A stretch of 64,000 nucleotides of DNA from a bacterium (lineage in GTDB: Bacteria > Deinococcota > Deinococci > Deinococcales > Deinococcaceae). Made by a program: the position numbers and the translations under genes. The notes below the pieces were generated by a model. That model did not search any database, was not told the DNA's origin, and worked only from the letters and a program-made list of their open reading frames with translations. The first letter of the stretch is position 1; every line of letters begins with the position of its first letter. Location of the stretch: NCBI GenBank assembly GCA_021810505.1, contig JAJZIR010000005.1, positions 1-64,000 on the forward strand, read 5' to 3'. Positions 40,145 to 44,286 of this stretch are shown piece after piece.

Positions 40145-41350
40145 GTGTCGAGCCTGCTCTTGCTCACCGCTCATCTCAGCATCTATCCCGCTCTGGCTGC
40201 GCTCCGCCAGTCGCTGACCGTCCCCACCGACCACTTCAGTTTTGAACTCACCCGTTCGGAGCTGCAGGACCTGGTCCCCGGAAGCTTGCAGCTCCGCGGG
40301 GTCGGGGTTCGACAGGCCACCGAGAGCGCCACCGGTGGCCTGGAATCCGAGGTCGGACGGATCCTGGACATCCCAGGAAAGCACGGACCGCAGGCGGTCA
40401 AACTGATCCGGCTATCCGGTCAAGGGGAGGTCTGGGTCCAGAATCTGGTCCAGGGGGTCTATCAGAAAATTCCCTCTTCCGAACTGGAGTTCCCGATCCT
40501 CCCCCCGGAACGGCTCGAGCGGATCGCTTTCGTGTTGAGCCGCCCAGGGCCAGCCACCTTGAATTACCAGACCACGGCAGTCAGCTGGAGCGTGGCCTAT
40601 CTCTTCCAGAAGCAAGCCGGTGGCCTCGGGACGATTACTGCCCAGGCCGAGATCAAAAATCGCCTGAATCGGGCTTGGAATGTCACGTCGGCGGAATTGA
40701 TTACCCAGAATCCCGGCCAGTTCCAGCTCGCCGCCGGGCCCAGTTTCAACCGGATCGCCCTGGCTTCCCAGCCCCCGACCCCGCTCGCAGAGAGCGTGGT
40801 CGCTGGTGCGCACCGCTACCGGATCGATGGGCCACTCCGGCTCCCAGCTGCAGCGACCGTGACGATCCCGTTCTTCAAGGTATCCAGCGCGATGCGGCAT
40901 TTTCTGGAACTCACCGCACCCTTCGAGCCCGCCAGCTCCCACGGCGCCTTGGAGAGCGTGTTCCGAATTCGTCCCAAGCGCTTCCTGCCGGCCGGTAGGG
41001 TCGCCCTGACCGATAGCGGCGTCCTGCTGGGCATTCAGGCGATACCCAACGAGGCGGCCGGACAGCCCTTTCAGATCGATCTGGGACCGGACCCTTCCGC
41101 CACCTACACCCAGACCGTCCGCCTGCTCCAGAAGACCTCGACCGCGGAGGTGTTCGCCGAGAGCTGGCGCATCGAGAACCACTCCAGCCATCCGATCGAC
41201 ATCCGTATCCGCCAAGACCTGCAGGCCTCCGAAGTAGCGGTGGGGCAGCGATCCGGGCAACCCATCGCGATCTCCGGGACCATCCCGGCCGAGGGATCGC
41301 TGGCGCGCACTTACCTGATCGACCTAGTCCTCGGCTCCAGCCACCCCTGA
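40145..41350 (+). CDS. Exported DUF4139-like protein
   Basis: 401 residues. A short hydrophobic N-terminus (SSLLLLTAHLSIYPALAAL) acts as signal peptide; the rest is beta-rich, with RSELQDLVPGSLQLRGVGV and a central domain whose L-N-Y-Q-T-T-A-V-S-W-S-V-A-Y resembles DUF4139. No enzyme motifs. Function unknown. GTG 40145 follows CACACT by five bases. Located just upstream of dnaA, 141 bases apart. Confidence 0.65.
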   Translation: MSSLLLLTAHLSIYPALAALRQSLTVPTDHFSFELTRSELQDLVPGSLQLRGVGVRQATESATGGLESEVGRILDIPGKHGPQAVKLIRLSGQGEVWVQNLVQGVYQKIPSSELEFPILPPERLERIAFVLSRPGPATLNYQTTAVSWSVAYLFQKQAGGLGTITAQAEIKNRLNRAWNVTSAELITQNPGQFQLAAGPSFNRIALASQPPTPLAESVVAGAHRYRIDGPLRLPAAATVTIPFFKVSSAMRHFLELTAPFEPASSHGALESVFRIRPKRFLPAGRVALTDSGVLLGIQAIPNEAAGQPFQIDLGPDPSATYTQTVRLLQKTSTAEVFAESWRIENHSSHPIDIRIRQDLQASEVAVGQRSGQPIAISGTIPAEGSLARTYLIDLVLGSSHP

Positions 41351-41481
41351 CCTCTGGCAACTTCCCTCCGGCCACCGCCGTAGCGGCCGGCTTCCCCCTC
41401 CACCTGCGTGCGGCGAGCGGCCCGCCGGGCTAAACTAGGAAGGCGGGACTGAGTAGAAGGTAGCGGGGCGGGACTTTGCCT

Positions 41482-41487
41482 TATACT
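41482..41487 (+). promoter_or_regulatory. dnaA -10 box
   Basis: TATACT. By the spacing of other promoters here, transcription would start near 41494, two bases after the first base of the TTG 41492 codon. Confidence 0.65.
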
Positions 41488-41491
41488 CCCA

Positions 41492-42865
41492 TTGCTTTGC
41501 GAAAGGGGTGTCGGCATCTCGCAGGAAATTTGGTCTGACGTCTTGGAATTCGTGCGTAGGCACGTATCTGACGTTGAGTACCATACCTGGTTCGTCAACG
41601 TCAAACAGCTCGGGGTCCGCGATGGAGAACTGATCCTAGGCCTCCGCAACGCCTTCGCCCAGGACTGGTTTCGGGCGCACTACCAGGAGTTGATCGAGCG
41701 AGGTTTACGCCAGCTGGGCGCCCAGGCACCCAAGGTCAGTTTCCAGGTGCTCCCGGTGGTCCAAGAGGCGCTGCTCGGCAATGACGCCAGCTACCCGAGC
41801 GATGGGCTGACTTCCGTCGCGGACTCGGCAGAGACCGCGTCGAACCGGCTCAATCCCAGATATACCTTTCGTAATTTTATCGTCGGGGCCAACAACAATC
41901 TGGCGCACGCCGCAGCGATGGCGGTAGCCGAAGCGCCCGGGAGAGCCTACAATCCCCTGTTCATTTACGGCGATGTCGGCCTCGGGAAGACCCACCTCAT
42001 GCACGCCATCGGGCACTCGGTAGCCAGCCGCAGCTCTGAGGTGCGGGTGGAATACGTATCGACCGAGAGCTTCACCAACGAGATGATCAATGCGATCCGG
42101 GATGACCGAATGGCCAGCTTCCGCAACCGTTATCGGTCGATCGACTTGCTCTTAGTGGACGATATCCAGTTTCTGGCAGGGAAAGAAGGTACGCAGGAAG
42201 AGTTCTTCCACACCTTCAATGCCCTGCACGAAAACCACAAACAGATCGTCTTGTCCAGCGATCGCCCACCGCGCGACATTCAGCCCCTGGAAAGCCGGCT
42301 CCGTTCCCGCTTCGAGTGGGGGCTCATCACAGATATCCAGAAGCCGGGGTTTGAGACCCGGGTCGCGATCCTAAAAATGAATACCGAGCGGCAGCAAGTG
42401 GTAGTCGAGCAAGAAGTTCTAGAGCTGATCGCTCGCCAGATCACCAGCAATATCCGCGAACTGGAAGGGGCGCTGATGCGGGTGATCGCCTATGCCAGCC
42501 TCAACAACCTGGAGCTCAACCGCAATACCGCCAGCAGAGCCCTCTCCGAAGTCTTCTTTACCCAGGAGGAAAAGCTGGAGATCGAGGATATCCTGCTAGC
42601 GGTCGGCGATCACTTCGGGGTCACCGAGGAATTGCTCAAGGCCTCTGGCCGGGCCAAGGAGATCGTGATCCCGAGACAGATCGCGATGTATTTGGCCCGC
42701 ACCCTGACCTCCTATTCCTTGCCAGAGATCGGGCAGGTCTTCCACCGCGATCACAGCACGGTGATCTATTCCATCCAAAAAGTTACGGACCAGCTGCAGC
42801 ACGACGAGGAGACCATCCGGATCGTCTCCCAGATCAAGCATAGGCTCAACACCAGGCAGGAGTGA
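41492..42865 (+). CDS. dnaA: Chromosomal replication initiator DnaA
   Basis: Initiator ATPase that binds TTATCCACA boxes and opens oriC. Domain I (residues 9-90, [26 protein letters not shown]), domain II linker, domain III AAA+ from [22 protein letters not shown] with Walker [17 protein letters not shown] and Walker [15 protein letters not shown], domain IV with the DnaA signature [12 protein letters not shown]. Start is uncertain. TTG 41492 is the first canonical codon, but homologues begin at S-Q-E-I-W and AUC 41516 has AAAGGGG seven bases upstream; the TATACT box would start the mRNA after TTG 41492. Confidence 0.96.
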
Positions 42866-42903: not shown

Positions 42904-43120
42904 TGTGGATAACCCTGTGGATAAGCTGTGGATAACCCTGTGGATAAGCTGTGGATAAGTACGCCCAAAAAACTCCTGTGGATAACTGGCCAGTTATCCA
43001 CAGCTTATCCACAGGTGTGGCCAGTTATCCACAGGAGTTATCGACAATGAATTTACTGTCTCAGACAGGCCGTAGGGCACTTCTCAACATTTTCCACAGG
43101 ACCTACTACTACTACTACTA
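42904..43120. other. Chromosomal replication origin oriC
   Basis: The 323-base gap between dnaA and dnaN. Exact TGTGGATAA boxes at 42904, 42916, 42927, 42939 and 42950 (starts 11 or 12 apart) and 42977; opposite-strand TTATCCACA at 42994, 43005 and 43025; one-mismatch boxes TTATCGACA 43038 and TTTTCCACA 43090. Boxes at 42977 and 42994 make a 28-bp palindrome centred on TGGCCA. After the last box comes GGAC, then CTA x6 (43103-43120) and a T-rich stretch. Confidence 0.96.
43090..43120. promoter_or_regulatory. DnaA-trio unwinding element
   Basis: TTTTCCACA box (43090-43098), GC-type spacer GGAC, then CTA x6, i.e. 3'-GAT-5' trios on the minus strand, followed by the AT-rich TTCTTTTATTG. This order matches the box/GC-cluster/DnaA-trio element described in Bacillus subtilis oriC, from which DnaA loads on single-stranded DNA. 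Confidence 0.8.
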
Positions 43121-43188
43121 TTCTTTTATTGTCTTTAGTAGTTATAGCGAGGGGCTCGGGAGGACGCCGAGTCGACATGGAGGCTCTG

Positions 43189-44286
43189 ATGCGAGTGCAA
43201 GTAGATAAGCGCCAGTTGGACGGGTCCCTGAGCCTGATGCAGGGCGTCTTTTCCAGCCGTCCAGCTAAACCGATCGAAGGGTATATCCACCTCTGGGCTG
43301 GGGAAGGGGCGCTCACGCTCCTGGTGACCAACGCCGACCTAGATCTACGGGTAACAGCGCCGGCTGAAGTGACTTCAGCCGGCGCTGTCCTGGTCCTCGG
43401 GCAGCTTTTCCCGGGAATCGTCAACAACTGCCCGGAAGGGCCTCTGGATCTGTATACGGACGGACAGCTCTTTCGGGTAGAGGCTCCCGGTGCACACTTC
43501 AACCTGCAAACCGGCCCCTTGGCCGACTTTCCGGAGCTGGAATTCATCGGTCCGGGAGACGACGCGGTAGTCCTGGATAGCAAGAAGCTGCTGACTGCCC
43601 TAGAGAACGTCGAGTACGCCGCCGGCAAAAACTCCTATCAGGCTACCCTGCGCGGCATCAAGTTCGAGTTGGCCCCCGGTCACCTGCGCACGGTGGCCTC
43701 GGACGGCTTCCGGATCGCCCTGAGCGAATTCGAAGCCGAATTCGCTGGAAAGCGGGAATTCATCGTGCCTGTGGGGGCCGTGAGGTGGCTGGTCAAGATG
43801 CTCCAGGCGGGGGATACCGAGGCGCGCGTCGCTGCGGCTGAGGGGGTCCTTCGGGTGCGTTGCGGGCAAGCCGACCTGAACATCCGTTTGTTGGACGGCG
43901 ATTTCCCAGACTACTGGCGCAGCATCCCCCCTGAGGCGAGATTCACGATCGAGTTGGAGGCTTCTGACCTGAGGCGGACCTTGGAGAGGGTCGATGTGAT
44001 GACCGACAAGTCGACCCATCACGGCGTAGAGTTCGTGATCACCAAGGACCGGCTGCAGGTTCTCGGGGAAAGCGGCCTTGGACGGGCGGTCAGCGAGCTG
44101 GCGGTGCGCTCTTTCGGTGTGGAACAGCCCATCTCCCTGAGCCTGAACGCCGAATTCGTCATCCAGGCGATCCGCCAGGTCAAAGGTGCGGTGGCGCTCG
44201 GCATCAACTCCGACACCTCGCCCATCGTCCTCTCGGCGGCGACCCCCAACAGCTATAAGGCGGTGATGCTGCCGCTGCGAATCTGA
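43189..44286 (+). CDS. dnaN: DNA polymerase III beta sliding clamp
   Basis: Processivity clamp. 365 residues from ATG 43189, which has GGAGG five bases upstream; ATG 43177 and the longer frame from 43129 are less likely. Three clamp domains: MRVQVDKRQLDGSLSLMQGVFSSRPAKPIEGYIHLWAGEG..., SYQATLRGIKFELAPGHLRTVASDGFRIALSE and the C-terminal part ending VMLPLRI, with a hydrophobic cleft residue set typical of the family. Confidence 0.96.
   Translation: MRVQVDKRQLDGSLSLMQGVFSSRPAKPIEGYIHLWAGEGALTLLVTNADLDLRVTAPAEVTSAGAVLVLGQLFPGIVNNCPEGPLDLYTDGQLFRVEAPGAHFNLQTGPLADFPELEFIGPGDDAVVLDSKKLLTALENVEYAAGKNSYQATLRGIKFELAPGHLRTVASDGFRIALSEFEAEFAGKREFIVPVGAVRWLVKMLQAGDTEARVAAAEGVLRVRCGQADLNIRLLDGDFPDYWRSIPPEARFTIELEASDLRRTLERVDVMTDKSTHHGVEFVITKDRLQVLGESGLGRAVSELAVRSFGVEQPISLSLNAEFVIQAIRQVKGAVALGINSDTSPIVLSAATPNSYKAVMLPLRI

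Follow-up and report, generated by a model that had tools for sequence, protein, structure and literature searches.

An ATC codon as the probable start of dnaA in a likely deep-branching genus of the Deinococcaceae

The closest precedent for a DnaA protein translated from a codon of the ATN type other than ATG appears to come from Deinococcus. By N-terminal proteomics, Baudet et al. (Mol Cell Proteomics, 2010) reportedly found that DnaA of D. deserti starts at ATC and RpsL at CTG. Papers that cite this work (PMC3313959, PMC5559785) credit it with several non-canonical starts and with an ATT start for infC. In E. coli, a GUG start and a poor ribosome-binding site lower dnaA translation and keep the initiation frequency low (PMC5835720), and in S. 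aureus the non-canonical starts AUA and AUU were measured to reduce expression roughly tenfold (PMC13009471).

Here we analyze the dnaA gene in a 64,000-nucleotide stretch of bacterial DNA (the window) and compare its start with those of relatives, for which 111 genomes of the phylum were searched. Initiation codons that themselves look regulatory are rare, and a conserved non-AUG start on the gene for the replication initiator is one such case; automatic annotation will misplace the DnaA N-terminus in this lineage. Because the Deinococcus case was reportedly described in 2010, an ATC-started dnaA is largely known already in that genus, and the gain from this locus is confirmation and a wider taxonomic range, extended by the window and by a second genome, G001.

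The dnaA start region

A profile search found a single dnaA in the genome of the window (Bac_DnaA PF00308, E=1.3e-75), encoded on the plus strand. The codons TCG CAG GAA ATT TGG (SQEIW) are preceded by ATC (41516..41518), which we propose as the initiation codon; from there the coding sequence runs to 42865 and encodes 449 aa plus stop. Counted back from the conserved W codon, the frame remains open for 26 codons; ahead of SQEIW it contains only one ATG, GTG or TTG, the TTG at 41492..41494, from which the product would be 457 aa long. Between the two candidates lies AAAGGGG (41502-41508), separated from the ATC by a 7-nt gap (TGTCGGC) and forming part of a Shine-Dalgarno (SD) element, AAAGGGGTG (41502..41510). 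Paired with a canonical anti-SD, which we assumed because the 16S 3' end of this genome was not recovered (a 16S model search of the family's genomes found no rRNA), AAAGGGGTG forms a duplex of -10.8 kcal/mol with a 5-nt spacer to the ATC. Counting both strands, the window contains 2185 ATC trinucleotides, of which 35 (1.6%) follow an SD of this kind (duplex at least as stable as -10.6 kcal/mol, spacer of 3-8 nt). Strength and spacing both match those of Thermaceae-type dnaA genes, whose SDs average about -11 kcal/mol with spacers mostly of 4-7 nt.

The likely choice of automatic annotation would instead be the TTG at 41492, used in a leaderless or SD-independent manner. No other canonical start lies in frame, TTG serves as the dnaA start in Thermaceae-type relatives, and D. 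deserti has leaderless transcripts (PMC5552922). However, this TTG has no SD (+1.3 kcal/mol against the same canonical anti-SD) and lies only 4 nt after a -10-like hexamer, TATACT (41482..41487), so that transcription initiating 6-7 nt past the -10 would exclude all or part of the TTG codon from the transcript. The TTG would also place the conserved W 13 codons downstream of the start, compared with 6-8 codons in nearly all relatives, and in G001 it has no counterpart and the upstream frame is shifted. On SD energy, promoter distance and the alignment with G001, we rejected the TTG and regard initiation there as quite unlikely.

Measured to the ATC, the distance from TATACT is 28 nt. In dnaA loci of family f4, relatives of the Thermus/Meiothermus type in which a TTG start follows TAGAAT or TAAAAT, the -10 most often lies 27 or 28 nt before the start. 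An earlier note on this DNA had proposed TATACT as a promoter, with transcription starting at about 41494. The distance of the hexamer to the start and a CTTTGCCT(T)ATA block that the window has in common with G001 support this proposal, whereas a sigma-70 scan of the dnaA upstream region called no promoter and found no consensus -35, which we attribute to a poor -35. We thus consider the TATACT promoter less certain than the other elements of the dnaA start. The hexamer, the TTG, AAAGGGG, the 7-nt gap and the ATC all lie where the earlier note had placed them, and its proposal of the ATC as initiator agrees with the SD strength and spacing, the promoter distance, conservation in G001 across a frame-breaking length change and the position of the start in relatives. 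From this combination of sequence features, we consider it highly probable that dnaA starts at ATC 41516 and not at an ATG.

Non-canonical starts among relatives

At the family level the comparison comprises two sequences, the window and G001, which represents another genus and whose DnaA is identical to that of the window at 301/446 residues. G001 has ATC at the homologous codon (ATC TCG CAG GAA ATC TGG), with an SD of -10.6 kcal/mol and a 6-nt spacer. The elements ATCTCGCAGGAA and GAAAGGGGTG are kept in G001, the latter as ten bases identical in the two genomes. The gap between AAAGGGG and the ATC is seven bases long in the window and eight in G001; this 1-nt length change puts the common SD block in different frames, so the block is conserved as RNA and not as protein, as expected of an SD but not of coding sequence. 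The second genome also bears on the possibility that the ATC is a base-calling error, or a mutation from ATG, GTG or TTG, in the assembly. Single-base errors do occur, and the assembly that contains the window is in 26 contigs, but the homologous codon is also ATC in G001, an independent genome from a different genus, and we regard such an origin as exceedingly improbable.

Two canonical codons also precede the ATC in frame in G001, an ATG at 36 nt and, within the SD, a GTG at 9 nt. This raises the possibility that the true start is the SD-embedded GTG (GGGGTG), which in G001 would give MPNISQEIW and a distance of 8 codons to the W, a spacing that some relatives share, and that the corresponding frame in the window was broken by a sequencing indel. 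Such a start would need an assembly error in the window, and the GTG belongs to the SD duplex, so that the SD left to serve it would be weaker (-6.2 kcal/mol). Moreover, infC of the same genome has an equivalent SD-embedded GTG that is followed by an in-frame TAG before its ATA, and because of this TAG the infC GTG cannot be the start. Given the SD energy, the frame shift relative to G001 and the infC parallel, we rejected the SD-embedded GTG and judge it a very unlikely start for dnaA.

The infC gene itself (L213, contig C12 of the window's genome, G000) has an ATA start immediately after the TAG, behind the SD GGAGGTG (-14.1 kcal/mol, spacer 5), and no other canonical start was found ahead of its conserved N-terminal domain. 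An AUN codon other than AUG behind a strong SD is present at both dnaA and infC of this genome. In relatives, the infC position holds ATA, ATT or ATC (two with ATC), with the exception of f2 (GTA) and of most of f3, in which no clear codon was seen. In rpsL (L227, contig C13), the sequence CTG CCC ACT GTC CAG has CTG before PTVQQ, and this gene probably starts at CTG. The same CTG occurs in G001 and most relatives examined; G003 and f2 have ATG.

Beyond the ATC in G001, aligning the dnaA starts of relatives, a check that the earlier note had suggested, showed that the same position is the start codon in other families. Among the numbered families f1-f5, in which the names for f1, f3 and f4 are our interpretation and f5 is Trueperaceae by a named locus (L032), the codon is GTG in f2, TTG or GTG in f3, TTG in f4 (49/49) and mostly ATG in f5. 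None of the 69 dnaA loci of f1-f4 has an ATG at the start position, and, as read from these loci, weak dnaA starts are the rule in the four families. In G002 and G003, whose contigs break off immediately upstream of dnaN, the search gave no dnaA match. There was no Deinococcus dnaA DNA among the genome-contig matches listed or among the best plasmid matches listed, and a pattern scan of viral contigs for the dnaA start returned nothing.

Placement of the organism and the origin region

The earlier note had also linked this DnaA to Deinococcus, and two other proteins point the same way. The best PDB match for the window's DnaN is 4TRT, the D. radiodurans clamp (219 bits, with the next at 112), and the closest PDB entries for ribosomal protein L2 are 1NKW and related entries (500 bits, compared with 476 for the next group), which we take to be D. 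radiodurans. D. radiodurans and G001 group together in the L2 tree (95/92), with the window branching more deeply at a weakly supported position; families were poorly resolved by the DnaN comparison. Together, the L2 and DnaN matches and the L2 tree suggest that the family is probably Deinococcaceae and the window probably a deep-branching genus within it. The DnaN of the window (43183-44283) is unusually divergent, at about 34% identity to members of its own family; for DnaA, identity to the G001 protein is 68%.

Between dnaA and dnaN lies oriC (42904-43120), with ten perfect TTWTCCACA boxes, compared with 0.14 expected in the whole window. The first six are on the minus strand and the last four on the plus strand, and the region contains perfect inverted repeats of 22 nt. 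After the last box, TTTTCCACA at 43090, come GGACC and CTACTACTACTACTA-like repeats, an arrangement that fits the DnaA-trio (3'-GAT-5') unwinding element described in PMC8287927. The oriC of G002 (L247) is arranged in the same way.

Within 250 nt upstream of the window's dnaA (41260-41510), we found no DnaA box, even with one mismatch allowed. A perfect box does lie upstream of dnaA in G001, in 3/4 f2 loci and in 14/46 f4 loci. The lack of such a box at the window's dnaA leads us to speculate that translational limitation of DnaA could matter more in this organism.

Possible control of DnaA synthesis and comparison with known systems

We propose a model in which dnaA would be transcribed from a promoter with the -10 TATACT, with transcripts starting at about 41494, and the extended SD AAAGGGGTG would select ATC 41516, which initiator tRNA would read as fMet; the Met would then probably be removed to leave an SQEIW N-terminus. 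As a fixed attenuator, the non-AUG codon would hold down the amount of DnaA made per mRNA, with ATC taking the role that UUG or GUG has in dnaA of related families. By analogy with the GUG start and poor ribosome-binding site of E. coli dnaA and the AUA and AUU starts of S. aureus, the rare codon probably limits the level of DnaA. That ATC is found in two genera, and that sister families have weak UUG or GUG codons at this site, suggests that selection has persistently favored low DnaA translation. IF3 discriminates against AUN start codons other than AUG, and for this reason DnaA output may respond to the level of IF3; such sensitivity is plausible by analogy with infC. In a broader proposal, the ATC of dnaA would be ancestral to the Deinococcaceae and maintained by selection, and alongside the non-AUG starts of infC and rpsL it would tie DnaA synthesis to the level of IF3 and hence to the translational state; we consider this unlikely.

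Among described systems, D. deserti is the most similar, with the same codon reported for the same gene and with non-canonical infC and rpsL starts in the same lineage. N-terminal peptides were measured in D. deserti, whereas the start of the window's dnaA is read from DNA, in two genera and with an order-wide comparison. The genus of the window is also deeper-branching, with a 2.3-Mb genome, and its infC has ATA in place of ATT. The E. coli infC gene, with its AUU start and IF3 autocontrol, resembles the window's dnaA in having an AUN codon behind an SD, at which IF3 discrimination would be expected. However, the product here is DnaA and not IF3, and there would thus be no direct feedback loop. 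In E. coli dnaA, as would be the case here, a weak initiation codon lowers DnaA synthesis, although the codon in the window is AUC instead of GUG and the SD is strong instead of poor.
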